Positions 6,129 through 49,661 of a stretch of 64,000 bases of DNA are shown one piece after another. The translations under genes were made by a program, and so were the position numbers. This stretch comes from an uncultured Lachnospiraceae bacterium. Its GTDB lineage: Bacteria > Bacillota > Clostridia > Lachnospirales > Lachnospiraceae. Under the pieces are notes generated by a model. It ran no database searches. It was given only the letters and a program-made list of their open reading frames with translations, and was not told where the DNA came from. The stretch is taken from assembly GCA_946552115.1 (NCBI GenBank), contig CAMNRH010000004.1:1-64000 (forward strand), given 5' to 3'. Each line of letters begins with the position of its first letter. Positions within the stretch are counted from its first letter, which is position 1.

Positions 6129-6147
6129 TTTTCCCCCGGATTATTTT

Positions 6148-6870: not shown

Positions 6871-6872
6871 GA

Positions 6873-8618: not shown

Positions 8619-8636
8619 TTACCAGTATCCTCCCTG

Positions 8637-9266: not shown

Positions 9267-9269
9267 TGG

Positions 9270-15191: not shown

Positions 15192-15197
15192 TTTGTT

Positions 15198-17429: not shown

Positions 17430-17451
17430 GTATCTGCGCTCCTTTCTGTTT

Positions 17452-19483: not shown

Positions 19484-19490
19484 TGTTCTC

Positions 19491-20687: not shown

Positions 20688-21027
20688 TTATTTTATCCAT
20701 TTCAGCCAACATCTGTGTGCGTTCCTGCAATAAAAGGGACAGCTGTACAGCCATCTCCTGGTTTTTTATTGACAGATGGGAGAATCGCAGGCTGATCCAG
20801 AAAGCGGCTGCTAAAATAACAATACCAATGATAAACGGCAGCAGCTTTCCTGATGAAAATATTGTTATAATCCGGTGAAATACCGGAGATACAGCTCCTG
20901 CTATTATCAAGAAGATTCCTGTAATTCCCCAGAAAGCAGTTAAATTTACTGTCAGTTTTCTTCGGGCCCTGAGCCAGACGGCGGCGGGCGGCAGCAGGAT
21001 GCCCGCTGCAAGTATTACATATCTCAT
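20593..21027 (-). CDS. Small membrane protein with C-terminal coiled segment, conserved next to pelG in both clusters
   Basis: 2-3 TM helices then a heptad-like region; paralog 38280-38705. Confidence 0.75.
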   Translation of the reverse strand: MRYVILAAGILLPPAAVWLRARRKLTVNLTAFWGITGIFLIIAGAVSPVFHRIITIFSSGKLLPFIIGIVILAAAFWISLRFSHLSIKNQEMAVQLSLLLQERTQMLAEMDKINEKNFVCNQYDGKSRSGNGSSGISEKAGRRL

Positions 21028-22490
21028 GCTTCTTTCGCGTCTCTTTCACAATCTGCTCTTTCAAAAACCAGTGAAGGAGGCTTTTGATTCTTTTCGCGTT
21101 TCAGTATAAAGCCCCGGCAGAAAATGTGGGTATCTAAATGCTTTGCTACCCAGCGAAGTCTGAAATAGGCGACTGACCACCCTGTGAAGGAGCCGATTAC
21201 AAGACCTGCTCCGTACCAGATTTCTGCCTGCTTCATAGCTGCCATACTTCCCAGAAGCGTGACAAAAAAGAAGCTTAACACGGTTAAAATTGCTCCGGTT
21301 AAATCATTGAAATAATATAAAAACAAAAGCGAAGCATACATCAAAAACAGAATAAAATATCCGGTCGCCAGGCAGGGATAGATTCTCATTACCTCTCCGG
21401 CAAATCCATACTGCGGCAGGAATACGATACAAAGCAGATAAATGACCACGGATATGATAAACTGCACACGCACCAGATTCATCAGTTCATTCCCGAGCTG
21501 ACGGAACATACGGCTTTTTGTATTCTCAATATCTATCTTTTTCCCGCCGATGACTGCCTCCGAATAAAGACGGTATTTTTCACGGAAATGCATTTCCATG
21601 TGCGTGACAAAAATAACGGTAGCAGATATATTTGTAAACATAGCGAGACAGGTTGCCATATCATAAGATTGATTAAATACAAAGCTGTCGGCGACAATTC
21701 TTCTGGCATCAGCCGTCCAAAATACAAAATTATGTATGTACAGGCCAAAGGTGTAAAAGAAGTTTGTAATCACCAGCTGCCAGTATTTTACAAAATATTC
21801 CAGTATCGGTTTGTACCGATTGCTGTTTCCTCTAAAATATCTTTTTACGGCGGTAAATTCCAGTATTGCTGTCAGTAAGAAACCTGCCGCGAGAGAAAAC
21901 AGCATACTCTCTGTCGTTTCCCATCGGCACCTGGTTCGCAGAACCCATGCAAGAAGAAATGCAATTACGATTCCGATAAAGAAAAAAAGAGAGATTCGCT
22001 CATAATCCTTACAAATAGAAAGAAAAATCATAGAATAAATAATGAATATGAGCGAAATATATGCACAAAATCCGATAAAGGAGAAAAACACACTTACTCC
22101 GCCTCTAAAATGCTCCCACAGACAAAAGGGAATTCCAAGCAGACATCCGGGTACTAATGTCATGACCAGCCCCAGATAGTAACAGGGGAGGATATCCGGA
22201 AAACGCTCTTCGTAAATCGCATCCTGCATATATTTCGATAATACGGCGTTAAATGGAGAAACAACCAGGAATGCAAAAATGAAAATATACAGTATCGTAC
22301 AGGAAAATAATTCCCGCTTCAGATAGGGCTCGTCGGCAAGTCCGAATATGTTTCCCATCAATAGAATGCCGATAATAATAATTAATATCGGAGCGATTGT
22401 AATAACGACGCTATAGGTAAATCCGGCAATATCTGCTGCAATGGATTTCTTTTGAAAAAAACGGTTTAGCTTGATTCCTATGCCTGCCAT
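21024..22490 (-). CDS. pelG: PelG-like polytopic exopolysaccharide export protein
   Basis: MAGIGIKLNRFFQKKSIAADIAGFTYSVVITIAPI; multi-TM; directly follows pelF. Confidence 0.9.
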   Translation of the reverse strand: MAGIGIKLNRFFQKKSIAADIAGFTYSVVITIAPILIIIIGILLMGNIFGLADEPYLKRELFSCTILYIFIFAFLVVSPFNAVLSKYMQDAIYEERFPDILPCYYLGLVMTLVPGCLLGIPFCLWEHFRGGVSVFFSFIGFCAYISLIFIIYSMIFLSICKDYERISLFFFIGIVIAFLLAWVLRTRCRWETTESMLFSLAAGFLLTAILEFTAVKRYFRGNSNRYKPILEYFVKYWQLVITNFFYTFGLYIHNFVFWTADARRIVADSFVFNQSYDMATCLAMFTNISATVIFVTHMEMHFREKYRLYSEAVIGGKKIDIENTKSRMFRQLGNELMNLVRVQFIISVVIYLLCIVFLPQYGFAGEVMRIYPCLATGYFILFLMYASLLFLYYFNDLTGAILTVLSFFFVTLLGSMAAMKQAEIWYGAGLVIGSFTGWSVAYFRLRWVAKHLDTHIFCRGFILKREKNQKPPSLVFERADCERDAKEA

Positions 22491-23941
22491 GATGCTTCTT
22501 CTCCCTCCACTTCTCCATTAAATGATATCTGCATTTCGTCGGCGAAGCTCTGATAAATGCTTCGGTAAGCTTCCTGCATTTGCGCAAACTGATAACCGGC
22601 TCTTACCCTTCTATAGCCATTTTCGCCCATTTGCTTACGCATTGTTTCATCATCAGCCAGTAAAAGCATTGCCTGTGCGATTTCTTCTACGTGCATAATC
22701 CGTGTGACAATCCCTGCCGGACCGTAGTCGTCATTTTCGCCAAGTATCAGTCCGCGGCAATTTCCCACATCGGTAGCAATGACAGGCTTATGCGATGCAA
22801 AGCTTTCCAGAATTGTAAGGGGCTGGCCTTCACTGATACTGGTCAGAATTGTCATATCCATCCTTCCGTAGTATTCTCTGACGTTGACCCGGCCCGTGAA
22901 TATTACGTCCGAAACACCCATTACATGCACCAGCTCAAAGCAATCCTGAGCGTATTCATTTTCTTCCCAATCGCCCATAATCCAAAGCTTCAGATTGGGC
23001 CTGGTTTCTTTTGCAAATCCAAATGCCTGGATTAAGGTCATAATATCCTTAATCGGGGCAATACGCAGTACGGCGCCGATGTTGATGCTCCCTTTGTCTT
23101 CCGCTGATTTTCCCTGAATATCCTGAAAGGTATCCACACGGATACCGTTGGATACAATCCTGATTTTTTCCGCGGGACATCCTAATTCTATCTGCAGCTC
23201 TTTTGCGTGCCTGTACAGGCTGGTAATGATATCTGCGCTGTTATAGGCAAGCGTTGACATTTTTTTAAATTGGTCAATCCATATATTTTTATAGATCCCC
23301 TGTACCCATTTTGCTTTAATCAGTTCTTCTTCACGTTCACGGGTATAAACGCCATGTTCAGATATCAAAAGGCGTCCTCCGTGAAAATATTTCGCCATAC
23401 TTCCCAATACTCCCGCATAGCCGGTACATGTACAATGGTACACGTCTGCCTGTGGAATCTCCATTTTCAGAGCAATAAATAACGGCAGATAAATCGAGCG
23501 CAGCATCCATAAAAAATCAACAAAAACCATTTGATTATAGCCTAGCTGGTAATATTCCGTGACAGCGTTAAAGAAATCCTCTCCCATTAACACATCATTT
23601 AATGAGATGTTTTTTTTGTGAAAATAGTCAAATAACGGTTCCCATTTAATTTGCTGTCCCAGCATCAGACTGATCAGGGCCTGATATTCGGTCTTGTTCA
23701 TCCGCGATTTTTTTCTGTTTCGTTTCTGACTCCAATCAGAATCATTTAAATACAGTTCATATATCCCGGATACATTTTCCGGCAGCTCGTATACATATTT
23801 TCCGCGCAGGGAACGATCTGCTACAATTGTCAGAATGATAAACTCCTGCTTTGGGTAAGAATGTATCAGGCCATGTATCCACTGGGATACCCCGCCTATC
23901 ATATAGGGGTAGCATCCCTCCGCTATTATGCAAATTTTCAT
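22478..23941 (-). CDS. pelF: PelF-like GT4 glycosyltransferase
   Basis: IIAEGCYPYMIGGVSQWIHGLI, TSISEGQPLTILESFA, TDVGNCRGLI. Confidence 0.95.
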   Translation of the reverse strand: MKICIIAEGCYPYMIGGVSQWIHGLIHSYPKQEFIILTIVADRSLRGKYVYELPENVSGIYELYLNDSDWSQKRNRKKSRMNKTEYQALISLMLGQQIKWEPLFDYFHKKNISLNDVLMGEDFFNAVTEYYQLGYNQMVFVDFLWMLRSIYLPLFIALKMEIPQADVYHCTCTGYAGVLGSMAKYFHGGRLLISEHGVYTREREEELIKAKWVQGIYKNIWIDQFKKMSTLAYNSADIITSLYRHAKELQIELGCPAEKIRIVSNGIRVDTFQDIQGKSAEDKGSINIGAVLRIAPIKDIMTLIQAFGFAKETRPNLKLWIMGDWEENEYAQDCFELVHVMGVSDVIFTGRVNVREYYGRMDMTILTSISEGQPLTILESFASHKPVIATDVGNCRGLILGENDDYGPAGIVTRIMHVEEIAQAMLLLADDETMRKQMGENGYRRVRAGYQFAQMQEAYRSIYQSFADEMQISFNGEVEGEEASWQA

Positions 23942-23964
23942 TTTATTCCTTCCTTTTCCCTGAT

Positions 23965-25764
23965 TTAAAGCTCAATAACAACATGTGCATGATCCGCCTC
24001 AATCAGATACGCATTCTTCTCCAGCATTGTAAAATCGCCGCCCTCAATATGGCTGATTCGTTCTCCGTCTGTTCTTAAAATAAACCATGCAGGTGTTACG
24101 GCGCCGTTGAAATCCAGCAAAATGGTATTTCCTTCTCTTTTTTCCGTGTAATCAAGCGCGAGGAAATTGCGGATTCTCTGGTCGCACTCAGACACGGTTG
24201 TTCCTGAGAATGTATGAAAATGCTCCCAGGAGGCCTTAATATTTGTACTGAAATCGGAAATGATTTTTTCTATATCATCCTCGGAACTCTTCGGATAGGC
24301 TGCACGGCTTAAATCCAATCCGACACTGCTGTATCCCAATGCGGTTTCGATGGCTCTGATTCGGAAATCCGTCCGAAAAGTATGACGGGCGCCGTCAGAG
24401 AGAATGCTTTGTTTTGTGACATAATCAGACTGATATCCGATAATTTCGCTGTCTTTATCATAATCTGTAACAACAGTCCGTATTGCTCCCAGCATGCTAT
24501 CCTGCAATGTGGCCTCCAGCTCTGTATCTGTTAGTTTTCCGGCATAAAAAGAGGTGAATTTATAACTCGGAAGAGAGTCCCTGACAAAGTGTTCATCCTC
24601 ATCTAATTTTTGCCCGATTAATGTATCTGAAATGCTGTCTCCGGATAATCCGGCTTCAGCGCTTTGTTCTTTCAGACGTTTCATGTAAAATTCCAGCTCC
24701 GACCGGCTCGGGAAAATATCGCTCCCATAATCATATCTTGGGGCAAGCATGCAGGTGAGGCCAAGTGTGTTTCTCCGGTAAACCGATATTACCGCCGGCC
24801 ATGCAATATTCCGAAACATCTGCGACATTGACTGTCCATACCGCTTTTGCATCTCTTCCTCATTTTCCGACGCCATTCCGGGATAGTTTGTAACAATCAT
24901 ATTCTGGGCGTTTACAACAGGATATAATTCGTATCCTGTTGATTTCGCTTTCATTGCTGACAACAGTCCCAGCCCTGTGGCATCCTCCATATAATCGCCG
25001 TTTACCGCAAATACCTGTGCGTTATCATAGCTTTTTCTCCAGATGACCGGCGGATAATCCTTTGCATCCATTTCTTTTTCTGGAATTCCCAGCATATATA
25101 CTTCTGTATTGGCGGAAAGCGAATACCATGGGAAGCTAAGCTCCATGTCCTGTTTTTTTTCGGCTTCTTCTTCTGCCCGATATACGGCTTCCCCGCCTAA
25201 GAAAAAGCCTTCATATAAATGAATTCCTTCTACGGTTGTCTCCTCTTTTCGCACCTCTTTAATTCCCAAAAGCTTTCTAAGCTTCTGACTTTCCTTTATA
25301 ACGGATACGTCCGGAAGATTACAAAAGACGAGGTCCGTTCCCTGCTCTATACACTGCTTCAGAATATCGCATGTATTTGACTGCTCCCAGTCTGTGTACT
25401 TTGCATCTATCACAAGCATGGCAGGGGAACCCTGCCCGGCAGCTTCCGCATATTCTGAGGCCGTATGATAGACGTCCAGATCCCGTTTTGTATAATTGGC
25501 CCAGTTATGGACGACCATGCTGCCGGCTTTATTTGTATCTCCGATGTATACGACTTTTTCCCGGGAATTTCCGGAAATATGTTCCGTTTTTTCATGCCCT
25601 GCCCTGTAGGCGCTTTCACGGCCGGCTAATTCTTCCTTTTTCCGGACATAAGAATTTTCTTCATATCCGTTCCAGCTTTCCAATACTGCGTTTGTAAACT
25701 GAAACAGAAAAAATACAATAAACATTACCACTGTAATTGCAAAATAATTTCTGCGTGATACCAT
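23965..25764 (-). CDS. PelA-position protein (DUF2194-like; putative PelA deacetylase-type component)
   Basis: N-terminal TM anchor, long extracytoplasmic domain; occupies the PelA position in the D-E-A-F-G order; family name from memory. Confidence 0.7.
   Translation of the reverse strand: MVSRRNYFAITVVMFIVFFLFQFTNAVLESWNGYEENSYVRKKEELAGRESAYRAGHEKTEHISGNSREKVVYIGDTNKAGSMVVHNWANYTKRDLDVYHTASEYAEAAGQGSPAMLVIDAKYTDWEQSNTCDILKQCIEQGTDLVFCNLPDVSVIKESQKLRKLLGIKEVRKEETTVEGIHLYEGFFLGGEAVYRAEEEAEKKQDMELSFPWYSLSANTEVYMLGIPEKEMDAKDYPPVIWRKSYDNAQVFAVNGDYMEDATGLGLLSAMKAKSTGYELYPVVNAQNMIVTNYPGMASENEEEMQKRYGQSMSQMFRNIAWPAVISVYRRNTLGLTCMLAPRYDYGSDIFPSRSELEFYMKRLKEQSAEAGLSGDSISDTLIGQKLDEDEHFVRDSLPSYKFTSFYAGKLTDTELEATLQDSMLGAIRTVVTDYDKDSEIIGYQSDYVTKQSILSDGARHTFRTDFRIRAIETALGYSSVGLDLSRAAYPKSSEDDIEKIISDFSTNIKASWEHFHTFSGTTVSECDQRIRNFLALDYTEKREGNTILLDFNGAVTPAWFILRTDGERISHIEGGDFTMLEKNAYLIEADHAHVVIEL
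25190..25287 (-). repeat. 98-bp tract identical (inverted) to 34002-34099
   Basis: Base-by-base comparison of the reverse complement with the right PelA-like gene. Confidence 0.93.
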
Positions 25765-25777
25765 TCTCGTTTTCTCC

Positions 25778-26734
25778 TCAGCTGAAAATACGAATCATTT
25801 CCAGCGTTTCATTATCAATAACTATTTCGGTTTTTTTCAAAGCATTGAGCGTCTGAAAGAAAGCATTTCTGTCTTTTGTCATAAAATACAGCTTTAACCG
25901 GCAGGTATATGTACAAAGCTCCTCCGGATACTGTCCGGCGAGACGCCGGCACCATTTTTCCGTGCTTTCAAATTCCTCGGTTTCCAGCAATCTCAGGCAT
26001 ACGTATTCATATCTTTTGGCAGTGAGAACAGATGCGTCTTTTTCATAGAGAGTATTAGCGGTTTCCTCCATCATCCGGACAAAACCGTTCTGCTCCAGCT
26101 GTGTAAATATTTTCTGTTCCAGATATTCATTCATATAATCAATCAAATTTTCTCCGCATTCTGTATTTTCATGATTATTAAGAAAGTCCGCGTACATTTT
26201 CCTTACATTCATGCGGAACTCATTTAATTTATCGCTCAGTATGGAGGCCGCATAGTGAGCCGTTTCAGAGTCGTCGGCGTCAAGCGCCATAGCAATGGAG
26301 GAAAGGGAACCTTTCGTCTCGCCTCTGATAATGCTCATCATCGCTGTCCGCAGACTCTTTTTATCATTCACGGCAAGTGCTTCTTCCACCGGTATTATGT
26401 TTCGCTCCTGTTCCTCGTTTGCCCTTACCTGCGTTTCGACACGCTCCTTACTAAAGGAGACATCCTCCAGATCGACGCTGAACCGGAAAAATGTCAGATA
26501 AAAAAGATGAGAGGTGAAAAAGAACAGAGGTCCGACTACCGGACAGAAAACCATCACGCAAAAACGAAGCAGATAGGTTCGTCTGTTATCCTGAAAGAGC
26601 TTTGCATTCTCATTCTTTTTTATTGTTTTTGCCGCCGCCGCAAATAGAACCCCATAAATGAGATAAAGCATGGATGCCGCTAAATTAACGATAAATATGA
26701 TTAGAAAAATATTTTCTTCTCCTGTTAATGTCAT
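25778..26734 (-). CDS. pelE: PelE-like inner membrane protein
   Basis: Two N-terminal TM helices plus helical-repeat C-terminus, overlaps pelD stop; paralog 32579-33520. Confidence 0.85.
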   Translation of the reverse strand: MTLTGEENIFLIIFIVNLAASMLYLIYGVLFAAAAKTIKKNENAKLFQDNRRTYLLRFCVMVFCPVVGPLFFFTSHLFYLTFFRFSVDLEDVSFSKERVETQVRANEEQERNIIPVEEALAVNDKKSLRTAMMSIIRGETKGSLSSIAMALDADDSETAHYAASILSDKLNEFRMNVRKMYADFLNNHENTECGENLIDYMNEYLEQKIFTQLEQNGFVRMMEETANTLYEKDASVLTAKRYEYVCLRLLETEEFESTEKWCRRLAGQYPEELCTYTCRLKLYFMTKDRNAFFQTLNALKKTEIVIDNETLEMIRIFS

Positions 26735-28911
26735 ACATCCGCCTCCCTCAGCAGGCTTTCGTATCCGGCGAGACGGAACCGCTCAATAACGCCTGTCACA
26801 TTCGCCTCATTTGTATTAGAAAGCAATACGTATAATTTTCCGTTTTCCAGTATGCCGAGATAATCGGTTGTTCTTATGTAGCTGCCGAGTATATCTGCCG
26901 CTCTGGCAAGGTCTTCATATGTTGTCTGTATCTCCAGCAGAGCACATTCGGTCAGATTTTCATGTTTGGCTTTAAAGAAAGCAATTACCAGGTTTGTAAA
27001 GGCTGTTTCGTTCAGTATATTTGTGCCTTCTATATAACGCTCGTGCCTGAGGCTTTCCAGATAACGGCTTGCACGTATAGAAGCGCTTTGAATTAATGTC
27101 CCTATAATTTTCAGCCGGTTTGTTTCCGCCAATGTCATACGCTGCCACGGGATTCCCCACAGCATCAGAATAAGCTGAAGCTTTCCTTCCGACGCCATAG
27201 CGCTGGCCATCAATGGCATATGCTCTGCCATTGTTTTATTGATATATACTCTTCCCTCTCTAAGATCGTTATACATTTCTTCCATATCGGTATAGCGAAT
27301 AGAGCTTCCAAGCTTTCTTGCATCCGCGGAAGTTGCCGAATATAACCTTGCATAGTCGTCGTTTACTACAAGATAAACCGCGACATCCCGGCTGTTCATT
27401 AATTGCCCTACCACTCGTGCAGCATAGAACAGTACTTCCTCCGAACCGTATTGCTCTAACTGTGATGTAATTTCATAAATTTTCCCGAGACTGTCTTTCT
27501 GATTTACAAGCTGTGCTTCAAAATTTTGTTTCATACGTACGTTACTGTTGTTAATTTCCGAAATGCCCTCTATTTTCTCGTAAAGATGCCGGACCTCCTC
27601 GTCATTGTCCTCACGGACATGACGGAGATGGTCGCGCATATAGCCTACAGCCATTCCCACGATAAAAAGCTGAGCCATCCACACATATGTATTGTAATCT
27701 AAGAGCACCTCGTAACCGCTGCGGAGATAGGATTGCTGAAAACAGTATCCGAGGATTGCCAAAAGGGCAGAAAAAATTGCCTGCTGCTGTCCGTGTACAA
27801 TTGCAAATAACAAAACATACAGCAAGTAAAAATCCAGCTTATTGAAATACAGGCTTCCCACCGTCTGTTCGTTCAGGAAAAAGAACAGGGCAAAACAAAT
27901 AAGACTCTCAATAAAAGGAAGCAGGGTTTTAAAAATCACCTTAATGTTATGCCATGCTTTCCCTTTCCAATTGCCCCCGGCCTCGTTGTCCTTTAAGAAT
28001 GTTTCACTGTGCATTTTCATGAACTGGACAATTTTTCCAACCCCGTCCTCATAATGATGAAATATTTTCTGCCCGAATTCGTTTTGAAAGCGGTGTCCGT
28101 CTAATATTTTTCGCTGGTTCTCACCTGCAGAATGGTCAACAAGCGTAATATTTCCGCCCATTTTTCTTTTTATAATTTCCGCAAGCTGTATTTCGGTAAT
28201 CGCTTCCATAGATGAAATGTGATAGCAGGAATAATCCGTATCTTTCTTTTCAATCACCTTGTAAATCAGCTCCACCGCATCGTTTAAATAAAGCATGGAA
28301 AACTTCTTTTTACCGCTTGCAGAAATCTTTCCTGTTTTTAATGCTTTCAGGCACATTTCGAAGCACGGGTCGCCGTCCGACTGGCCTCTTTCCGGAATAT
28401 GGTAAATATGATCCAAACGCAAAATAATTGTATTCACTCCCTGTATCTCCCGGTAGTTGCTGCAGAGGGCTTCTCCCTGCGATACAGCCGGAGCCTTAAA
28501 GCCTCTTGCCGCAACGGCTGTTTCCTCTGAAATATCATCCGCATAGGAACCGTCAAAAACCTCCTGGGAGGATAAATAGATAAATTTTCCAGAGCTGAAC
28601 ATAGAATATGATGATAAAATATTAACCATAGCCGTCGTATAGCGCAGCGCTTCCGCCTGACCGTTATATTTCCAGTCAAATCCCGTATCATATGCGCCCG
28701 TAAACAGTACGGCGTCCGGTCTGACGCTCTCTATAATGTCTTTTACATTGCTGTCTGTATAAGAAAAATTATAGGTTTCAAATACGTGCGCTCTTGCAAT
28801 CTTTTTCTTTTTTTGTCCGGTAAGCCAGTATATACGATGGTTGCTTTTATTTAGCTTAATTATTATGGCATTTACCAGTCTGCTGTCGTCGCCAATTAAT
28901 AATATATTCAT
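26731..28911 (-). CDS. pelD: PelD-like c-di-GMP receptor: N-terminal degenerate SDR/epimerase, TM helices, GAF-like, degenerate GGDEF with RxxD I-site
   Basis: SDR-like start MNILLIGDDSRLVNAI; TM block; C-terminus YIRTTDYLGILENGKLYVLL (RxxD, 5 residues, ENGKL in place of GGDEF). Confidence 0.9.
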   Translation of the reverse strand: MNILLIGDDSRLVNAIIIKLNKSNHRIYWLTGQKKKKIARAHVFETYNFSYTDSNVKDIIESVRPDAVLFTGAYDTGFDWKYNGQAEALRYTTAMVNILSSYSMFSSGKFIYLSSQEVFDGSYADDISEETAVAARGFKAPAVSQGEALCSNYREIQGVNTIILRLDHIYHIPERGQSDGDPCFEMCLKALKTGKISASGKKKFSMLYLNDAVELIYKVIEKKDTDYSCYHISSMEAITEIQLAEIIKRKMGGNITLVDHSAGENQRKILDGHRFQNEFGQKIFHHYEDGVGKIVQFMKMHSETFLKDNEAGGNWKGKAWHNIKVIFKTLLPFIESLICFALFFFLNEQTVGSLYFNKLDFYLLYVLLFAIVHGQQQAIFSALLAILGYCFQQSYLRSGYEVLLDYNTYVWMAQLFIVGMAVGYMRDHLRHVREDNDEEVRHLYEKIEGISEINNSNVRMKQNFEAQLVNQKDSLGKIYEITSQLEQYGSEEVLFYAARVVGQLMNSRDVAVYLVVNDDYARLYSATSADARKLGSSIRYTDMEEMYNDLREGRVYINKTMAEHMPLMASAMASEGKLQLILMLWGIPWQRMTLAETNRLKIIGTLIQSASIRASRYLESLRHERYIEGTNILNETAFTNLVIAFFKAKHENLTECALLEIQTTYEDLARAADILGSYIRTTDYLGILENGKLYVLLSNTNEANVTGVIERFRLAGYESLLREADV

Positions 28912-28940
28912 ATTTTTCTGCCATCCTTTTCTTTATTTTG

Positions 28941-28967
28941 TTTCGCAATAGAATTCCTATTACGAAA
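28941..28967 (+). repeat. Left inverted recombination site (IRL): TTTCGCAATAG-AATTC-CTATTACGAAA
   Basis: Inverted match to 30331-30357 with one mismatch (A at 28962); internally palindromic arms. Confidence 0.95.
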
Positions 28968-28998
28968 TCAACGCTATCATTCAACCGTCTCGTAATTA

Positions 28999-29028
28999 AT
29001 GTTACTATATAAAGCTAAAGTTTGTCAA
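28999..29028 (-). promoter_or_regulatory. Sigma-A-like promoter TTGACA-N18-TAACAT, outward toward left pelD
   Basis: -35 at 29023-29028, -10 at 28999-29004 on the minus strand. Confidence 0.6.
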
Positions 29029-29110
29029 TTAAGATAACAGTAATTTCTACTGATTTTTGCCTCGCAAAAACGAAACACTGCCTTTTACAGGTATTTTCAG
29101 TCAGAAATTT

Positions 29111-29132
29111 TAAGCCGTCAAATAAGCCGTCA
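29111..29132 (+). repeat. Direct repeats TAAGCCGTCA x2; candidate arm-type recombinase binding sites
   Basis: TAAGCCGTCA at 29111-29120 and 29123-29132, same motif at 30266-30275. Confidence 0.7.
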
Positions 29133-29149
29133 GAACAGGAGGAACTATT

Positions 29150-30268
29150 ATGGCAAGAAGAGGAGAAAATATTTATTTCAGAAAGGACGGACGCTGGGAA
29201 GGGCGTTACATTAAAAGCCGTGACTTAAACGGAAAAGCAAGGTTCGGTTCCGTTTACGGAAAGCATTACCAGGAGGTCAAAAAAAAGCTTGTTATCATTA
29301 AATCCGAGCTGTATCAAAGTGATTTCATTCCTGTTATACATGGAAACGGAAGCTTTGAAGACTGGGCGGACTACTGGCTGGAAATATTGGTATCCCCCTA
29401 CGTCAAACCGGAAACCTGTTCGGGCTACCGCCGAAGCCTGAATAAACACATTTATCCGGCATTAGGCAGAATGAATATACGTGAAATTGAGCCGCGGCAT
29501 ATCCAGGATATGGTTTTGGCTCTCCAGAAAAAACTGGCAGCCACAACCTTAAGGGGTATTTGCCGTCTTCTGAAAAGTATTTTCAATGCCGCCTGTGAAA
29601 AAAGCGTTTTATTCCATAATCCATATCAGGATATTCGTGTTCCCAAAGCAGGAAAGCGTCCGCCCCGGGTACTCACATGCCTGGAGCAGGAAAAGCTGGA
29701 AAGGAATGCACTGACGAATAATGAGCTGGAATATCTGATGTGTCTGTACACGGGAATCCGTGTCGGTGAGCTTTGCGCGCTCAGATGGCAGGATGTGGAC
29801 CTCGAAAATTCTATTCTTCATATCCGGCATTCCATTCAGCGCATTCCGTCAGATTCCGGCTTACGCAGGACACAGCTTATTTTAGGGACTCCAAAGTCGG
29901 AATCCTCCGTGCGGGATATTCCCATTCCTGAATTTCTCGGCATGCTCCTCCGGGAGAAAAGGATATTGGAAAAGACAGACGCGAAAGATCAGCTTTTTAA
30001 AGGTGTCAAGGGAGGTTATCTGGATCCCCGGACAATGCAGCAAAGAATTTCAAAGCTTGGAAAACAGCTCGGAATAAGCGGAGTTCACATGCATACGCTC
30101 CGCCATACCTTTGCCACAAGATGTCTGGAGCAGGGAATCCCGTATGAGATACTGTGCGAATTTCTGGGGCATTCCTCGCCGCAGATTACCTTGCGCCATT
30201 ATGCTCACTGTACGCCGGAAACAAAGCGGAAAAATATGGAATTCCTGAATTCAATCTTTCTTTTATAA
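29150..30268 (+). CDS. Tyrosine recombinase/integrase with N-terminal arm-binding-like domain
   Basis: N-terminal IYFRKDGRWEGRYI; catalytic R in TGIRVGELCALRW, HTLRHTFATR, LGHSSPQITLRHYAH; RBS AGGAGG upstream. Confidence 0.97.
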   Translation: MARRGENIYFRKDGRWEGRYIKSRDLNGKARFGSVYGKHYQEVKKKLVIIKSELYQSDFIPVIHGNGSFEDWADYWLEILVSPYVKPETCSGYRRSLNKHIYPALGRMNIREIEPRHIQDMVLALQKKLAATTLRGICRLLKSIFNAACEKSVLFHNPYQDIRVPKAGKRPPRVLTCLEQEKLERNALTNNELEYLMCLYTGIRVGELCALRWQDVDLENSILHIRHSIQRIPSDSGLRRTQLILGTPKSESSVRDIPIPEFLGMLLREKRILEKTDAKDQLFKGVKGGYLDPRTMQQRISKLGKQLGISGVHMHTLRHTFATRCLEQGIPYEILCEFLGHSSPQITLRHYAHCTPETKRKNMEFLNSIFLL

Positions 30269-30285
30269 GCCGTCATAAAGCGTCA
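30266..30285 (+). repeat. Direct repeats TAAGCCGTCA/TAAAGCGTCA; candidate arm-type sites
   Basis: Same motif as 29111-29132, overlapping the recombinase stop codon. Confidence 0.65.
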
Positions 30286-30330
30286 TCATATTTTCTTAAT
30301 TTCCCCATAATATCAACGAATTGTAAATTG

Positions 30331-30357
30331 TTTCGCAATAGGAATTCTATTGCGAAA
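30331..30357 (+). repeat. Right inverted recombination site (IRR): TTTCGCAATAG-GAATT-CTATTGCGAAA
   Basis: Inverted copy of IRL; perfect 11-bp arms; spacer is the reverse complement of the IRL spacer. Confidence 0.95.
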
Positions 30358-30401
30358 TTTTCGTGTAATTCCGAAAAAAATGAGGAGGATGACGGAGAAT
30401 A

Positions 30402-32582
30402 ATGAACGTATTATTAATCGGCGGTGGTAACAGACTTGTGGATGCTTTGATAAATAAGCTCAATAAAAGCAGTCATAAAATTTATTGGCTTACAGGGCAA
30501 AAGGAAAAGAAAGTTTCCCGGAAGAACGTGTTTGAAACTTATCACTTTTCCTATACGGATAGTAATGTCAAGGATATTATTGAAAGCGTGAGGCCGGACG
30601 TCGTGTTATTTACCGGGGCCTACGACACGGATTTTGACTGGAAATATAATGGTCAGGAGGAAGCGCTGCGTTATACGACGGCTGTAGTTAACATTTTGAC
30701 GGCATATTCCATGCTGGGGGAGGGAAGATTTATTTACCTGTCCTCTCAGGAGGTTTTTAACGGATCGTATGCAAATGATATTTCGGAGACGGCGGCGGTG
30801 TCGGCAAGAGGCTTTAAGGCTTCAGCCATTTCACAGGGAGAAGCTCTCTGCAGCAATTACCGGGAGATACAGGGAGTGAATACAATTATTTTGCGTTTGG
30901 ATCATGTTTATGGCCTTCCCGAAAAAGGGCAGACAGAAGGAGACCCGTGCTTTGAGATGTGTCTGGAGGCATTAAGGACAGGGAAGATTCCGGCGAACAG
31001 CAGGGAAAAGTTTTCCATGCTTTATTTGAATGACGCGGTAGAGCTGATTTATAAAGTAATAGAAAAAGACGACGCGGAGCATGCGTGCTATCACATCTCC
31101 TCAATGGAAGTGATAGACGGGATGCAGCTTGCAGAGATGGTAAGAGATAAGATGGGCGGAGAGATTGCAATTATAGACCGTCCGGTGGGAGAAAATCGGC
31201 GTCTGGTACTGGATGGACGAAGATATCAGAAAGAATTTGAACAAAGGATTTTTACCCATTATGAAAAAGGGGTAGACAGGGTTGTCCAATATATGAAGCA
31301 GTACGGCGACACGTTTCTTAAGGTCGGAGACGTGGGAGGACGATGGAGCGGCAAGGGCTGGCATACTGCTAAAAGGGTTTTTAAGAGTCTGCTTCCGTTT
31401 ATTGAGAGCCTCGTTTGCTTTATCTTATTCTTTATGCTGAATCAGCAGACGGTGGGAAGCCAGTATTTCAGCAGGCTGGACTTTTATTTACTGTATGTTT
31501 TAGTATTTGCAATTGTTTATGGGCAGCAGCAGGCGATTTTTTCGGCGCTTTTGTCCGTGCTGGGGTATTGTCTCCAGCAGGCTTATGTTCACAGCGTGTA
31601 CGAGGTGCTGCTGGATTATAATACATATGTATGGATGGCGCAGCTGTTTATTGTGGGAATGGCGGTAGGCTATATGCGCGATTATCTCAGGAATATACAG
31701 GAGGATAAGGAAGAGGAAATCCGCCGTCTTTACGAGAAAATAGAGGGCATTGCGGAAATCAATGACAGTAATGTCCGGATGAAGCAGAATTTTGAGGCGC
31801 AGATTGTAAATCAGAAAGACAGTCTTGGAAAGGTATATGAGATTACCTCGCAGCTTGATCAATACGGCCCGGAGGAGGTATTGTTCTATGCGGCCCAGAT
31901 GATGGGACGGCTGATGAACAGTCAGGATGTGGCGGTTTATCTCGTAGTAAACGATGATTATGCGCGCCTGTATTCTGCGACCTCCGCGGATGCAAGGAAG
32001 CTTGGAAGCTCAATTCAATACACGGCTATGGATGAGATGTATAACGAGCTTAGAGAGGGCAGGGTTTATGTGAATAAAACGATGGCGGGGGATTTGCCGT
32101 TAATGGCGAGCGCCGTGTTCTCGGAAGGAGATATGCAGCTGATTCTGATGCTCTGGGGAATTCCGTGGCAGCGAATGACGCTGGCAGAAGCAAATCGGCT
32201 GACTATTATAGGAACCCTGATTCAGAATGCGCTGGTTCGTGCAAGCCGTTATCTGGAAGGCCTCAGGCAGCAGCGTTATGTAGAGGGGACGAACGTGCTG
32301 AATGAGGATGCCTTTACAAAGCTGGTGATTGCATTTTTGGAGGCTCGGAATAAGGGTCTGACAGAATGCGCCCTGCTGGAAATCCAGACCGGACGTCAGG
32401 GATGCGAGCAGGCGGCGGACGTTCTGAGCAACAGTATCAGGTCGACAGATTATTTAGGTGTATTAGAAAATGGAAAGCTGTACGCGCTGCTTTCAAATAC
32501 AAATGAACACAATGTGGAAGGTGTGATGGAGCGATTCCGGATTGCAGGATATGACAGTCTGTTAAAGGAGGCGGAGGTATGA
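30402..32582 (+). CDS. pelD: PelD-like c-di-GMP receptor (paralog of 26731-28911)
   Basis: Same architecture; SIRSTDYLGVLENGKLYALL at the degenerate GGDEF. Confidence 0.9.
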   Translation: MNVLLIGGGNRLVDALINKLNKSSHKIYWLTGQKEKKVSRKNVFETYHFSYTDSNVKDIIESVRPDVVLFTGAYDTDFDWKYNGQEEALRYTTAVVNILTAYSMLGEGRFIYLSSQEVFNGSYANDISETAAVSARGFKASAISQGEALCSNYREIQGVNTIILRLDHVYGLPEKGQTEGDPCFEMCLEALRTGKIPANSREKFSMLYLNDAVELIYKVIEKDDAEHACYHISSMEVIDGMQLAEMVRDKMGGEIAIIDRPVGENRRLVLDGRRYQKEFEQRIFTHYEKGVDRVVQYMKQYGDTFLKVGDVGGRWSGKGWHTAKRVFKSLLPFIESLVCFILFFMLNQQTVGSQYFSRLDFYLLYVLVFAIVYGQQQAIFSALLSVLGYCLQQAYVHSVYEVLLDYNTYVWMAQLFIVGMAVGYMRDYLRNIQEDKEEEIRRLYEKIEGIAEINDSNVRMKQNFEAQIVNQKDSLGKVYEITSQLDQYGPEEVLFYAAQMMGRLMNSQDVAVYLVVNDDYARLYSATSADARKLGSSIQYTAMDEMYNELREGRVYVNKTMAGDLPLMASAVFSEGDMQLILMLWGIPWQRMTLAEANRLTIIGTLIQNALVRASRYLEGLRQQRYVEGTNVLNEDAFTKLVIAFLEARNKGLTECALLEIQTGRQGCEQAADVLSNSIRSTDYLGVLENGKLYALLSNTNEHNVEGVMERFRIAGYDSLLKEAEV

Positions 32583-33520
32583 CGCTGACAAGGGAAGAAA
32601 GTATTTTGCTGGGAGTTCTTGTTGTTAATCTGGTATTGGCAGCGCTTTATCTGTTGTATGGAGTGTTTTTTGCGGCGCCGGGGAAAAAGGAAGGAGAGGC
32701 TACGCGTGATGGCAGAGCCACTTATTTCCTGCGTTTTTTGGTGATGGCGCTGTTTCCGGTAGGAGGCTTTGTATTTTTTCTTTTGGCACAGCTGCTTTAT
32801 AAAACGGTTTTCCGTTTTGGCGTAAATCTGGAAGATGTTACCTTTAGCAAGGAACGTGTGGATACGCAGGTGAAAGCGGACGAGGAGCAGGAGAGGAATA
32901 TCATTCCGATAGAGGAGGCGCTCGCAGTAAATGATAAGAAAAGTCTCCGTACCGCAATGCTGAGTATTATCAGAGGAGAGGTTCAAAGCTCTCTTTCCTC
33001 AATTGCCCTTGCGCTTAATTCAGGAGATTCCGAAACTGCCCATTATGCCGCTTCGGTACTGAGCGATAAGCTGAATGAATTTCGTATGAATGTGCGGAGG
33101 CTGTATTCAGAGATTCAGGGTAATCCGGAGCAGACAGGATGCGAGGAAGAACTGATTGATTATATGGACGGTTTTTTAAAGCAAAAGGTTTTTACACCGC
33201 TGGAGCAGAACGGATATGTAAGAATGATGGCCGAAGTTGCAGATATGCTTTATCAGGAGGATATGTCCAGGCTTACGGTGGAACGCTATGAAGGCGTGTG
33301 TCTGCGGCTGATGGAGGCGGAGGAGTTCGAGGCTTCAGAGATGTGGTGCCGGCGGCTTGAGGAGGAGCATCCGGAGGCCTTGTGCGCGTATACCTGTAAA
33401 TTAAAATTGTATTTTGTATTAAAAAACAGGGAAGCTTTTTTTCAGACGCTTGACATCCTGAAAAAGTCAGATGTGGTGATTGACAGCGAAACTCTGGAGA
33501 TGATCCGTATTTTCAGTTGA
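32579..33520 (+). CDS. pelE: PelE-like inner membrane protein
   Basis: Paralog of 25778-26734 in the same position. Confidence 0.85.
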   Translation: MTLTREESILLGVLVVNLVLAALYLLYGVFFAAPGKKEGEATRDGRATYFLRFLVMALFPVGGFVFFLLAQLLYKTVFRFGVNLEDVTFSKERVDTQVKADEEQERNIIPIEEALAVNDKKSLRTAMLSIIRGEVQSSLSSIALALNSGDSETAHYAASVLSDKLNEFRMNVRRLYSEIQGNPEQTGCEEELIDYMDGFLKQKVFTPLEQNGYVRMMAEVADMLYQEDMSRLTVERYEGVCLRLMEAEEFEASEMWCRRLEEEHPEALCAYTCKLKLYFVLKNREAFFQTLDILKKSDVVIDSETLEMIRIFS

Positions 33521-33533
33521 GGAGAGAAAGAAA

Positions 33534-35333
33534 ATGGTATCACGCAGGAATTATTTTACAATTACAGTTATCATGATTGTTGTATTTTTCATGTTCCAGT
33601 TTACGAATGCCGTACTGGAAGGCTGGGATGGATATGAAGAGAATGCTTATGCCCAGGACAGAGAGAGTCTGGCCGGACGGGGAAGCGCTTATCAGCAGGA
33701 AATGAAAGAAAGCCCTGATAATTCTCGTGAGAGAATCGTCTATATTGGGCGCGCCGACGGAGCGCTTGGAAAGGTTGTGTATAACTGGGCAAATTATACA
33801 AAGCGGGAAGCAAAGATATATAACACGATAGAAGAATACGCACAGGCCGGGGAGGGCACGGTCCCGGCGATGCTTGCTGTGGATGCAGAGCATATCGACT
33901 GGGAGCAGGCTTCGGTATGCGAACGGCTGGAGGAATGGGTAGAGAAAGGGGCAGATCTTGTTTTCTGTAATCTTCCTGAGGTATCCGTTATAGAGGAAAG
34001 CCAGAAGCTTAGAAAGCTTTTGGGAATTAAAGAGGTGCGAAAAGAGGAGACAACCGTAGAAGGAATTCATTTATATGAAGGCTTTTTCTTAGGCGGGGAG
34101 GTCGTATATAGGACAGAAGATGAAGAAGAAGCCGAAAAAAGACAGGACATGGAGCTTAGCTTCCCATGGTATTCGCTTTCCTCAGATACGGAAGCATATA
34201 TGCGGGGAATTCCCGAAAAAGAAATGGATGTAAAGGATTATCCGCCGGTCATCTGGAGGAAACGTTTTCATAATGCACAGGTGTTTGCCGTGAACGGCGA
34301 TTACATGGAAGATGCGGCAGGATTAGGGATTCTGGCCGCAATGTCGGCGGAAACAAAGGATTATGAGCTTTATCCGGTAGTAAACGCGCAGAATATGGTG
34401 ATTATGAATTGTCCGGGAATGGCATCGGAAAATAAAGAGGAGATGGAAGCCCAGTATGGGCAGTCTATGGCGGAGATGTTCCGGAATATTGCATGGCCGT
34501 CTATTGTATCGGTTTACCGGAGAAATACATTGGGGCTTTCCTGTATGCTGGCGCCGCAGTATGATTACGGGGATGATCAGTTTCCCAGCCAGACGGAGCT
34601 GGAGTTTTATATGAAGCGGCTAAAGGAGCAGAGCGCGGAAGCGGGATTGTCCGGGGAAAGTGTATCGGATACGCCGATCGGACAGAAGCTGGATGAGGAT
34701 GAACGGTTTGTAAAAAAATCACTTCCGGATTACAGGTTTTCCTCTTTTTATGCGGGAGAGCTGACAGAGCTGGAATTGGATTCGGTATTCGGGGAGGAGG
34801 ATATTCTGGAAGCGGTAAGGACAGTTGCCAGGGACTATGACGGAGGAAGCGAGGTTGTCGGATATCAGTCGGAGCATATTACCAGCCAGAGTATTCTTTC
34901 TGACGGTGCGACGTATACATACCGCGAGGATTTCCGGATGAGGGGCGTACAGACGGCATTGGGCTACAGCAGTGTCGGAATGGATTTAAGCCGCGCTGTT
35001 TATCCGGCTGATGTGCAGGATGAGATAGACAGAATGATTTCTGATTTTAGCTGGAATGTCCGAACAAACTGGAAGAATTTCAGCGCTTTTTCCGGAACAA
35101 CACTTTCGGAGTCCGATCAGAGAATCCGGAATTTCCTCACGCTTGATTATGAGGAGAAACGGGAAGGAAATACCATTTTGCTGGATTTCACCGGCATGGG
35201 CGATTCAGCCTGGTTTGTTTTAAGAACAGACGGAGAACGAATCAGCCATATTGAGGGCGGCGATTTTACAATGCTGGAGGAAAACGCGTATCTGATTGAG
35301 GCCGATCAGGCGCATGTGGCAATCGAGCTTTAA
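33534..35333 (+). CDS. PelA-position protein (DUF2194-like)
   Basis: Paralog of 23965-25764. Confidence 0.7.
   Translation: MVSRRNYFTITVIMIVVFFMFQFTNAVLEGWDGYEENAYAQDRESLAGRGSAYQQEMKESPDNSRERIVYIGRADGALGKVVYNWANYTKREAKIYNTIEEYAQAGEGTVPAMLAVDAEHIDWEQASVCERLEEWVEKGADLVFCNLPEVSVIEESQKLRKLLGIKEVRKEETTVEGIHLYEGFFLGGEVVYRTEDEEEAEKRQDMELSFPWYSLSSDTEAYMRGIPEKEMDVKDYPPVIWRKRFHNAQVFAVNGDYMEDAAGLGILAAMSAETKDYELYPVVNAQNMVIMNCPGMASENKEEMEAQYGQSMAEMFRNIAWPSIVSVYRRNTLGLSCMLAPQYDYGDDQFPSQTELEFYMKRLKEQSAEAGLSGESVSDTPIGQKLDEDERFVKKSLPDYRFSSFYAGELTELELDSVFGEEDILEAVRTVARDYDGGSEVVGYQSEHITSQSILSDGATYTYREDFRMRGVQTALGYSSVGMDLSRAVYPADVQDEIDRMISDFSWNVRTNWKNFSAFSGTTLSESDQRIRNFLTLDYEEKREGNTILLDFTGMGDSAWFVLRTDGERISHIEGGDFTMLEENAYLIEADQAHVAIEL
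34002..34099 (+). repeat. 98-bp tract identical (inverted) to 25190-25287
   Basis: Direct base comparison. Confidence 0.93.
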
Positions 35334-35356
35334 ATCAGGGAAAAGGAAGGAATAAA

Positions 35357-36820
35357 ATGAGAATTTGTATAATAGCGGAAGGGTGTTATCCCTATGTAGT
35401 AGGCGGCGTGTCTGAATGGATACACGGCCTGATACGCTCTTATCCCAGGCAGGAGTTTATGATTCTTGCAATTGTGGCGGATCGTTCGCTCCGGGGCAAA
35501 TATGAATATGAATTGCCGGAAAATGTGTTGGAGGTGCATGAGCTGTATTTAAATGATTCTGACTGGGTCGGAAAGAGAAGTGGAAAAAGGCTCCGGATGA
35601 ATAAGGAAGAATATCATGCGCTTGTGAATCTGATGCTTGGACAGCAGTCGAGATGGGAACTGCTTGTTGATTATTTCCAGAAGCCGGGGGTGTCTTTGAA
35701 TGATGTGCTGATGGGCGAGGATTTTCTGAATGCGGTTACGGAGTATTACCGTCTGCAGTATAGTCAGATTGTATTTGTTGATTTTTTGTGGATGATGCGC
35801 TCAATTTATCTTCCATTGTTTACTGTTTTGAAAATGGAGATTCCGAAAGCGGATGTATACCATTGTACCTCTACCGGTTATGCAGGCGTGCTGGGAAGTA
35901 TGGCGAAATATCTTTACGGCGGGCGTTTGCTGATATCAGAACACGGCGTTTATACCCGTGAGCGTGAGGAGGAACTGATTAAGGCAAAATGGGTGCAGGG
36001 AATTTATAAAAATATATGGATTGAGCAGTTTAAAAAGATGTCAGCGCTCGCCTATGACAGAGCGGATTTGGTAATCGGTTTGTATCAGCATGCCAGAGAG
36101 CTTCAGATTGAGCTGGGATGCCCGGAGGAAAAACACAGAATTGTGCCGAATGGAATCCGGGTGGAGGATTTTCGGGATATACCCGGAAAAAAGAAAGAGG
36201 ATGAGGATAAAATCAATGTCGGCTCTGTACTGCGTGTCGCCCCGATTAAGGATATTATGACCCTGATTCAGGCATTTGGCTTTGCGAAAGAAAGAGAGCC
36301 AAGATTAAAGCTTTGGATTATGGGCGCCTGGGAGGAAGAGGAATACGCAAGAAACTGTTTTGAGCTGGTGCGCATTATGGGAATTCCGGATGTAGAATTT
36401 ACCGGCAGGGTCGATGTCAGGGAATATTATGGAAGAATGGATATGACGATTCTGACCAGTATCAGTGAAGGACAGCCGCTAACCATTCTGGAAAGCTTTG
36501 CGGCGCGTAAGCCTGTTGTTTCCACAGATGTGGGAAACTGCCGCGGTCTGATTTTTGGCGAGAATGACGATTTCGGCGCGGCGGGTATTGTCACCCGTAT
36601 TATGCATGTAGAAGAAATTGCAGACGCGATCCTTAAGCTGGCCTGGAATGAAGAGACGCGCAGACAGATGGGGGAGAATGGATACCAAAGAGTAATGAAG
36701 GGCTATCAATTCGCACATATGCAGGAGGCTTACCGGGAGATTTATCAGAGGTTTGCAGATGAGCTGCAGATACCGTTTGAGGAGGAAGAAAGCGAGGGTG
36801 AAGAAGAATGGCAGGCATAG
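35357..36820 (+). CDS. pelF: PelF-like GT4 glycosyltransferase
   Basis: IIAEGCYPYVVGGVSEWIHGLI, TSISEGQPLTILESFAA. Confidence 0.95.
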   Translation: MRICIIAEGCYPYVVGGVSEWIHGLIRSYPRQEFMILAIVADRSLRGKYEYELPENVLEVHELYLNDSDWVGKRSGKRLRMNKEEYHALVNLMLGQQSRWELLVDYFQKPGVSLNDVLMGEDFLNAVTEYYRLQYSQIVFVDFLWMMRSIYLPLFTVLKMEIPKADVYHCTSTGYAGVLGSMAKYLYGGRLLISEHGVYTREREEELIKAKWVQGIYKNIWIEQFKKMSALAYDRADLVIGLYQHARELQIELGCPEEKHRIVPNGIRVEDFRDIPGKKKEDEDKINVGSVLRVAPIKDIMTLIQAFGFAKEREPRLKLWIMGAWEEEEYARNCFELVRIMGIPDVEFTGRVDVREYYGRMDMTILTSISEGQPLTILESFAARKPVVSTDVGNCRGLIFGENDDFGAAGIVTRIMHVEEIADAILKLAWNEETRRQMGENGYQRVMKGYQFAHMQEAYREIYQRFADELQIPFEEEESEGEEEWQA

Positions 36821-38277
36821 GTGTCAAACTAAATCGTTTCTTTGAAAAGAAATCAATTGCGGCGGATGCCGCTGGAATTACCTATAGTGTTGTGATTACG
36901 ATTGCCCCGATACTTATGGTTGTGGCCGGAATTTTGTTGATGGGCAATATGCTGGAAATAGGAGAAGCGCCTTATTTGAAAAAGGAACTGTTTTCCTGTA
37001 CGATGATGTATGTCCTGATTTTTGCGCTTCTGGTAGTTTCGCCCTTTAGCGCAGTATTTTCCAGGTATATGCAGGATGCTATTTATGAGGAAAAGTATCA
37101 GGATATTCTTCCATGCTATTATCTGGGAGCGGCTATGACGGTAGGGTTGGGCTGTATTCTGGGTATTCCGTTCTGTATCCGGGAGCATTTTGTCGGCGGG
37201 GTAGACGCGTTTTTTGTATTGATTGGCTTTTGTGCTTATATTGCTATGATATTGGTGTTTTATTCCGTGACCTATCTTTCCAGCTGTAAGGATTATGAGA
37301 AGATTTCCCTTTTCTTTTTTATCGGGATAGCGGCGGCCTTTGGCCTTTCATGGATTCTTCGGTTCTGGTGTCACTGGGAAATAACAGAAAGCATGCTTTT
37401 TTCACTGATGGTTGGTTTTCTGCTTATTGCAGTGCTGGAATTTACGGCTATAAAAAGTTATTTCCGTGAGAACAGTAATAACTATAAGCCGGTATTGGGC
37501 TATTTTAAAAAATGGTGGTATCTGGTTATTACGAATTTTTTGTATGTGTTAGGACTGTATGTTCATAATTTTGTATTCTGGACGGCGGATGGAAGAAGTA
37601 TTGCGGCGGAAAGCTTTGTATTTAACCAGTCCTATGATATGGCTACCTGTCTTGCGGCAGTGTTCACAAATGTGTCTGCCACCGTTATTTTTGTCACACA
37701 TATGGAAATGCACTTCCATGAAAAATACAAAAGCTATTCGGAAGCAGTCATCGGCGGAAAAAAACTGGATATTGAGAGCGCTAAAAGTCAGATGTTCCGG
37801 CAGCTTGGAAACGAGCTGATGAATCTTGCGCGCGTGCAGTTTATGATATCTGTGGTAGCTTATTTGCTTTGCATTGTGCTGGCTCCGCAATATGGCTTTG
37901 GAGGAGTGGTTATGCGGATTTATCCATGCCTTGCGGCGGGTTACTTTATCGTATTTATTATGTACGCGGCGCTTTTGTTCCTGTATTACTATAACGACGT
38001 AACAGGTACGGTTGTTACATCACTGAGCTTTTTCCTTGTTACCCTTTTGGGCAGCATAGCTGTTATGCGGCTTCCGGAAATCTGGCATGGCATGGGGCTT
38101 GTGCTGGGCGGCTTTGCAGGATGGACGGTTGCATATATGAGGCTGCGCTGGGTGGAGAAAAATCTGGATGTGCATATTTTCTGCAAGGGAAGCATTATAA
38201 AAAGAGAAAACGCTCCGAAGCCGTCCGGCCTGGTCTATAAAAGGCAGGACAGAAATCAGGAAAAGGGAAACGTGTAA
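36808..38277 (+). CDS. pelG: PelG-like membrane protein
   Basis: Paralog of 21024-22490. Confidence 0.9.
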   Translation: MAGIGVKLNRFFEKKSIAADAAGITYSVVITIAPILMVVAGILLMGNMLEIGEAPYLKKELFSCTMMYVLIFALLVVSPFSAVFSRYMQDAIYEEKYQDILPCYYLGAAMTVGLGCILGIPFCIREHFVGGVDAFFVLIGFCAYIAMILVFYSVTYLSSCKDYEKISLFFFIGIAAAFGLSWILRFWCHWEITESMLFSLMVGFLLIAVLEFTAIKSYFRENSNNYKPVLGYFKKWWYLVITNFLYVLGLYVHNFVFWTADGRSIAAESFVFNQSYDMATCLAAVFTNVSATVIFVTHMEMHFHEKYKSYSEAVIGGKKLDIESAKSQMFRQLGNELMNLARVQFMISVVAYLLCIVLAPQYGFGGVVMRIYPCLAAGYFIVFIMYAALLFLYYYNDVTGTVVTSLSFFLVTLLGSIAVMRLPEIWHGMGLVLGGFAGWTVAYMRLRWVEKNLDVHIFCKGSIIKRENAPKPSGLVYKRQDRNQEKGNV

Positions 38278-38279
38278 AA

Positions 38280-38705
38280 ATGAAGCGTATCTTGCGGGCT
38301 TTGGGACTGTTTACAATAGCGCTCTCCGTCTGGCTTCGCGCCTTAAGAAAATTGACCGTTGATTTTACGGCTTTCTGGGGACTGACAGGTACTCTGCTGG
38401 CTGCGGCGGGATTTTTTCCCCCGCTGTACGGACGGGCAGAATCGCTGGATGCAGAACGGAAACGGCGGCTGTGTTTTTTCGGGGGTCTTTTATTATCCGT
38501 AGTTTTTTCTGCCAGTCTTATACTTTCAAGACTGGCGGTGAAAAATCAGGAACTGGCAGTCAGGCTTTCTCTGCTGGGACATGAAAAGGAACAAATGTTG
38601 GCCAGGTTGGATGAGATAAATGAAGAGGATTCTTTTTGTAATCAATACGATGGGCCAGGCAGGCGCGGAGACGGCCTTTCTGGAGTTTTTGAAGAAAATA
38701 GATGA
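38280..38705 (+). CDS. Small membrane protein
   Basis: Paralog of 20593-21027. Confidence 0.75.
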   Translation: MKRILRALGLFTIALSVWLRALRKLTVDFTAFWGLTGTLLAAAGFFPPLYGRAESLDAERKRRLCFFGGLLLSVVFSASLILSRLAVKNQELAVRLSLLGHEKEQMLARLDEINEEDSFCNQYDGPGRRGDGLSGVFEENR

Positions 38706-41861: not shown

Positions 41862-41899
41862 AAAATAGATAATAGTGGGGAAAAGGAGGAGACATCCGT

Positions 41900-44098: not shown

Positions 44099-44099
44099 A

Positions 44100-46990: not shown

Positions 46991-47012
46991 TAGCAGGGGG
47001 CAAAAGTGAGCT

Positions 47013-48585: not shown

Positions 48586-48633
48586 AATAAAAAAATTTCC
48601 GACAGATATTTTTGAAATGAGAGGGGGATTTTT

Positions 48634-49578: not shown

Positions 49579-49661
49579 TAATACAGATGGACTTAATTTA
49601 GCGGTGTCTTGAATGTGCTGAAACAGGTTTAGTTATAGAATGAGGAGAGAATGAAGCGGCT

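Follow-up and report, generated by a model that had tools for sequence, protein, structure and literature searches.

The Hin/hix flagellar switch of Salmonella is built around Hin, a serine recombinase. Hin is also an example of a recombinase that is encoded inside the segment it inverts (PMC5903667). RecV of Clostridioides difficile acts on several switches, among them cwpV and flg, and its gene lies apart from them (PMC2784873, PMC5903667). Among invertons of gut Clostridia, group 139 has been linked to a tyrosine recombinase group, and the examples named in the text of that study are about 230 to 260 bp long with the invertase within 5 kb (PMC11892184). The Pel operon of Gram-positive bacteria has been described as pelDEADAFG (PMC7112168). 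Our literature search, which covered openly accessible main texts, turned up neither pel nor other Pel-type loci controlled by an invertible promoter, nor a mirrored two-copy Pel arrangement sharing such a promoter, nor an invertible promoter segment that encodes its own tyrosine recombinase.

Here we analyze a locus of this kind in an uncultured Lachnospiraceae bacterium (GCA_946552115.1, contig CAMNRH010000004.1). The window, meaning the whole 64,000-nucleotide stretch of DNA that was analyzed, contains a segment at 28941-30357 that appears to be a self-contained invertible promoter cassette acting as a selector between two Pel-type operons and now set to the left one. On the sequence and its comparison with relatives, we give this reading a probability of roughly 0.83.

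Two mirrored Pel-type operons

The operons on either side of the cassette are mirror-image paralogs of about 24 kb each (Table 1). The left operon carries pelD-pelE-pelA-pelF-pelG, GTs, DUF4832 proteins, a pyruvyl transferase, and an ABC exporter, and the right operon is followed, after a gap of 265 bp, by further polysaccharide genes up to the end of the window. The gene order pelD-pelE-pelA-pelF-pelG, with PelG, PelF, and an SDR-PelD, is that of Gram-positive Pel operons, PelE being assigned by position and mutual homology only. Left and right proteins are 75% (PelD), 66% (PelE), 71% (PelA), 77% (PelF), 71% (PelG), and 58% (DUF4832) identical, and dN/dS between the paralogs, where dS could be computed, is 0.08 to 0.16. 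This indicates that both operons are under purifying selection and so are being maintained. They diverge in their distal parts, where a GT4 and a GT2 are among the genes found only on the left, and two DUF6020-like proteins and one AMP-binding/nitroreductase protein are among those found only on the right. The right operon alone has a neighboring pair of similar membrane-type proteins of 819 and 793 amino acids (window positions 49662-54499), the first of which matches DUF6020. In five other species examined from the same genus, full-length pelD genes are single and have no cassette alongside; one of these species also has a partial pelD homolog. No promoter source for either operon other than the cassette is evident within the window.

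Table 1. Features of the cassette and the flanking operons (positions in the window)
Feature	Position	Strand	Details
Left polysaccharide operon	5070..28911	-	19 closely spaced genes, with gaps of up to 23 bp
Left leader, IRL to left pelD	28912..28940	-	29 bp, only ribosome-binding sequence
IRL, palindromic recombination site, left crossover	28941..28967		TTTCGCAATAG-AATTC-CTATTACGAAA; full, TTTCGCAATAGAATTCCTATTACGAAA
-10 hexamer TAACAT of predicted outward promoter	28999..29004	-	also kept in L052
-35 hexamer TTGACA of predicted outward promoter	29023..29028	-	also kept in L052
Two direct repeats AAGCCGTCA, candidate arm-type sites 5' of recombinase	29112..29132	+	29112-29120 and 29124-29132
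Tyrosine recombinase, 372 aa	29150..30268	+	Phage_integrase PF00589, SAM_3 PF14659, Phage_int_M PF22022
Two direct repeats AAGCCGTCA/AAAGCGTCA, candidate arm-type sites 3' of recombinase	30267..30285	+	
IRR, palindromic recombination site, inverted relative to IRL	30331..30357		TTTCGCAATAG-GAATT-CTATTGCGAAA; full, TTTCGCAATAGGAATTCTATTGCGAAA
Right leader, IRR to right pelD	30358..30401	+	44 bp
Right polysaccharide operon	30402..54499	+	17 closely spaced genes, with gaps of up to 83 bp

Recombination sites and recombinase

The cassette is 1,417 bp long and is bounded by two 27-bp sites, IRL and IRR, with one gene, that of the recombinase, between them. Each site is an 11+5+11 palindrome, and the two are complementary at 26 of 27 positions in inverted orientation, so that inverted repeats flank a segment holding a predicted promoter, as in invertons. 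The cassette abuts the ribosome-binding sites directly, with the left pelD starting at 28911 and the right pelD at 30402. An earlier, sequence-only reading of this DNA gave the correct distances between sites and start codons; the left leader, which it called mostly ribosome-binding sequence, contains only such sequence, and its placement of the site in the leader as a hairpin just 5' of the ribosome-binding site agrees with stable folds predicted in both pelD leaders. At IRR the hairpin is followed by TTTT and is weakly terminator-like.

The recombinase has the expected catalytic motifs (TGIRVGE, TPKSESS, HTLRH, LGHSS, and RHYAH), and its R-K-HxxR-H-Y motifs and PF00589 domain assign it to the tyrosine type rather than to the serine (resolvase-type) enzymes. 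Catalytic and core-binding domains are both present, as in Tn916/Tn1549-type integrases, and the nearest solved structures are Int protein entries 6emy-6en2, which we take to be the Tn1549 integrase. Copies of AAGCCGTCA occur in the window at 29112, 29124, and 30267, with a variant at 30277. GTCA/CCGTCA pairs thus stand at both ends of the gene as candidates for the arm-type repeats of such integrases. An excisable conjugative element is not indicated: no transfer genes adjoin the recombinase, and the two sites are inverted rather than direct.

The predicted outward promoter

The minus-strand sequence TTGACA-N18-TAACAT lies exactly where the sequence-only reading had placed it, faces left, and scores 10/12, with the -10 hexamer matching at only 4 of 6 positions. 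Four promoter-like matches were found at a loose threshold between 28.7 and 30.6 kb, against 3.6 expected from shuffles, and this one ranks first. The claim that it is the only strong candidate, located inside the cassette, is confirmed with a qualification: the match is the best in the region and is conserved, but taken alone a 10/12 match in the upstream region has a shuffle p of only about 0.03. The window sequence alone thus provides moderate, suggestive evidence for an outward promoter, and comparison makes the case strong. The statistical weight comes from conservation, because the hexamers are kept in the closest relative cassette and an outward promoter recurs in most related cassettes (see below). 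A start near 28992 on the minus strand would fit the hexamer positions and the 18-bp spacer. Between the recombinase stop (30268) and IRR, where that reading saw no comparable outward promoter, outward matches reach at most 8/12, which falls short of the shuffle mean (8.8) and is no better than chance. A strong promoter for the recombinase itself was not seen either; the best match toward the gene is 9/12 (shuffle p 0.49).

The closest relative cassette is in G400, a species of the same genus, where the recombinase is 62% identical and the genomic place is quite different and not next to pel. The inverted sites of this cassette (L044/L052) are 23 bp long and perfect, and they share their arms (TTCGCAATA...TATTGCG) with the window sites but have another core. 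It keeps both TTGACA and TAACAT with a 17-bp spacer that differs in sequence and by one base, and in the upstream alignment the CCGTCA repeats and a site-adjacent stretch are kept as well. Its promoter faces a strong terminator-like hairpin, with the target gene on the other flank, which corresponds to an OFF setting.

A widespread cassette family

Recombinase homologs from the order, 90 of them nonredundant, were examined by one rule. Inverted repeats with an ungapped score of at least 13 flank 63 of the 90 recombinases and 2 of 156 control open reading frames; at a stricter score of at least 16, the counts are 61 recombinases and 1 control. No repeats were detectable under the survey rule in 27 of the 90 homologs. 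The repeats are near perfect, and the sequence of these palindromic core sites varies between loci and matches within a locus. An outward promoter of at least 10/12 is present in 49 of the 63 cassettes on the recombinase's 5' side, 15 to 72 bp from the site (median, 34 bp), with a perfect TTGACA in 39 cassettes, and mean promoter scores are 10.7 outward versus 9.0 toward the recombinase. Pairs of GTCA motifs, counted when 9 to 15 bp apart and within 80 bp of the recombinase, precede the gene in 41/63 cassettes (0.2 expected) and follow it in 37/63 (0.3 expected), and the GTCA/CCGTCA repeats are likely arm-type sites. This comparison strongly supports the earlier proposal that the cassette promoter would serve the flanking pelD genes through the sites.

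It is conceivable that the promoter-like sequence is unused, that pelD expression is set elsewhere by a far promoter or a regulator, and that the site hairpins act as leader attenuators. The stability of the predicted hairpins and the fact that promoter-like matches in the region are no commoner than in shuffles agree with this, but the conservation of hexamers and position across the family, the lack of space for another promoter on either side, and the tiny gaps inside the operons make it improbable.

Family targets include chemoreceptors, phosphatases, NRPS, type VII secretion-like ATPases, surface proteins, and polysaccharides. Methyl-accepting chemotaxis proteins recur (L090-L097, L101, L103, and L172). 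One of these loci, L090, was considered as a second mirrored two-target locus and dropped because about 2 kb separate its left paralog from the site. L175 may be a second two-sided polysaccharide case, with a UDP-galactopyranose mutase operon on one side and a nucleotidyltransferase-type gene on the other. At L112 (2947-7521) and L153 the cassette is directly 5' of large FtsK/SpoIIIE-type ATPases resembling EssC, which suggests phase-variable type VII-like secretion. At L120, L121, and L137 it is directly 5' of NRPS genes, homologs of about 1,150 amino acids in three genomes, with condensation, AMP-binding, and carrier domains in L120; a phase-variable natural product is suggested. A conserved cassette in one genus (L126/L130-L136; G648, G726, G743, G770, and G732) has a target protein of 412 to 422 amino acids, which in L126 of G648 matches the Cas12f1/TnpB-type TNB domain (PF07282), and L163 has another TnpB-like target; a phase-switched TnpB-like gene would be unusual. 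In G696, the right end of contig C16 and the left end of C12 (L092 and L093) carry the same cassette, and these contig ends are an assembly break at inversion sites.

A scan of genome_contigs returned only distant relatives, of which L005 was useful, and the relatives in viral_contigs are only 27% identical; a family search at E 1e-80, which was too strict, returned nothing beyond the window. The homologs L045-L051 (29 to 35% identical) have no clean repeat pair under the survey rule. Among them, L046 has long inverted repeats, and in L051 (9931-15315) the recombinase, a more distant one of this type, lies among several hsdS genes in alternating orientation, an arrangement that resembles a type I restriction specificity shufflon.

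Natural inversion in relatives

Inversion of a family cassette was observed between the sister species G648 (1 contig) and G726 (4 contigs). At L130 and L131 the flanks are collinear at about 97% identity, whereas the cassette aligns in inverted orientation at 91.5% identity and its breakpoints coincide with the repeats; in silico inversion of the G648 cassette restores one collinear alignment with G726. For the more distant congeners G743, G770, and G732, alignment with G648 likewise shows the cassette turned around with respect to the flank. This precise inversion between collinear flanks shows that the family flips in nature, in cassettes whose recombinase is only about 35% identical to that of the window. 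Congeneric orthologs in genus g321 and the near-identical pair L104/L105 have the same orientation and gave no evidence of flipping. In L130 (2673-2706) and at the promoter-side site of L060, a T run follows the recombination site on one side, so that the site palindrome can, as judged from its sequence, double as an intrinsic terminator for the OFF-orientation promoter.

Terminal inverted repeats are also a feature of transposons. The repeats at the ends of the cassette, together with the relationship of the recombinase to Tn1549/Tn916 integrases, would likewise fit a mobile-element remnant, an integrase inserted between two operons with no role in switching expression. We consider this the least probable explanation: the repeats are palindromic core sites that are locus specific yet match within a locus, an outward promoter is conserved, the cassette lies directly against ribosome-binding sites, and the precise inversion between species largely refutes a remnant for the family.

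Proposed mechanism

In the most likely mechanism, the segment would be inverted by the recombinase, an enzyme of the Tn916/Tn1549-integrase type, bound to both inverted palindromic core sites and probably also to the CCGTCA arm repeats flanking its gene. A single strong sigma-A promoter, diverging from the recombinase, would fire through whichever site it faces. Since the one promoter lies inside the invertible segment, it would drive one of the two mirror-image operons at a time, and since there is a target at both cassette ends, the cassette would be a selector and not an on/off switch. In the assembled orientation the left pelD would be driven; after inversion it would be the right pelD, which lacks a promoter within its 44-bp leader. 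The outcome would be a heritable, reversible choice between two related, differently decorated exopolysaccharides. The anatomy, the conservation of sites, promoter, and arm repeats, and the inversion in relatives are observed directly; for this locus, we infer inversion, promoter activity, and the polysaccharide phenotype.

The sequence-only reading did not consider that the recombinase gene is oriented toward the right pelD and that nothing but the site hairpin lies between the two. These genes are co-directional, separated by an AT-rich site hairpin and TTTT, so read-through may blur exclusivity, and the present orientation may leave the right pelD with weak expression instead of silencing it. 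Taken further, the cassette would invert, but read-through starting at the recombinase's own promoter would also transcribe the operon on its 3' side, leaving both pel operons on in every cell at unequal strengths. The missing good terminator is consistent with this, as is the position of the target among relatives with one clear target, where the promoter faces away in 30 and toward in 7 (targets were assigned automatically, and a few assignments will be incorrect), so that in 30 the single target is on the recombinase's 3' side. That bias is unexplained if switching is symmetric; it could reflect mainly OFF populations, or cotranscription of recombinase and target may matter. We nevertheless regard strong/weak rather than exclusive control as unlikely, though the most serious of the alternatives: no strong promoter for the recombinase was seen, the arm repeats just 5' of its start could repress it, and the site hairpin is a terminator-like element, the only one found between recombinase and right pelD.

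The finding is larger than the earlier claim, in that a whole operon of about 24 kb lies on each side and the cassette is a member of a widespread family. With moderate confidence, we lean toward a self-contained, portable, order-wide family of tyrosine-recombinase cassettes of about 1.4 kb (recombinase, arm sites, core sites, and outward promoter) with diverse targets, a member of which would here alone supply a promoter to two complete mirror-image operons and make cells choose between their polysaccharides. If a selector is indeed at work here, one promoter decides between two whole exopolysaccharide pathways as a clean two-state device, and a Pel-type biofilm sugar is tied to phase variation, a link that we did not find in the literature searched. 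The family offers dozens of test cases in Clostridia, and surveys for invertons that are geared to short segments may overlook cassettes of 1.4 kb that encode their own recombinase.

Comparison with known systems

Several described switches share parts of this architecture. In the fimS/FimB-FimE system of Escherichia coli, tyrosine recombinases likewise flip an invertible promoter, but the element is 314 bp, the recombinase genes are outside it, and there is one target operon. RecV resembles the window system in combining a tyrosine recombinase with an inverting regulatory segment in a clostridium, but its switches are small and one-sided (PMC2784873, PMC5903667). Group 139 shares short inverted repeats, an invertible promoter, a nearby tyrosine recombinase, and the Clostridia as hosts; judged by the examples named in the text of that study, the window differs in having the recombinase inside a 1.4-kb segment (PMC11892184). 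The operons share with the Gram-positive Pel operon the PelD-E-A-F-G order, the SDR domain at the PelD N terminus, and the DUF4832 accessory proteins (PMC7112168), and they differ from it in being two complete mirrored copies with one shared predicted invertible promoter.

The Hin/hix switch is alike in having the recombinase gene and an outward promoter inside the invertible segment and in yielding alternative surface products. It differs in that its promoter faces one operon directly and the other is controlled by a repressor, whereas here a complete mirror-image operon lies at each end of the cassette, and in that the cassette has a tyrosine recombinase with candidate arm-type repeats. The best reading is that the cassette would be a tyrosine-recombinase counterpart of Hin.
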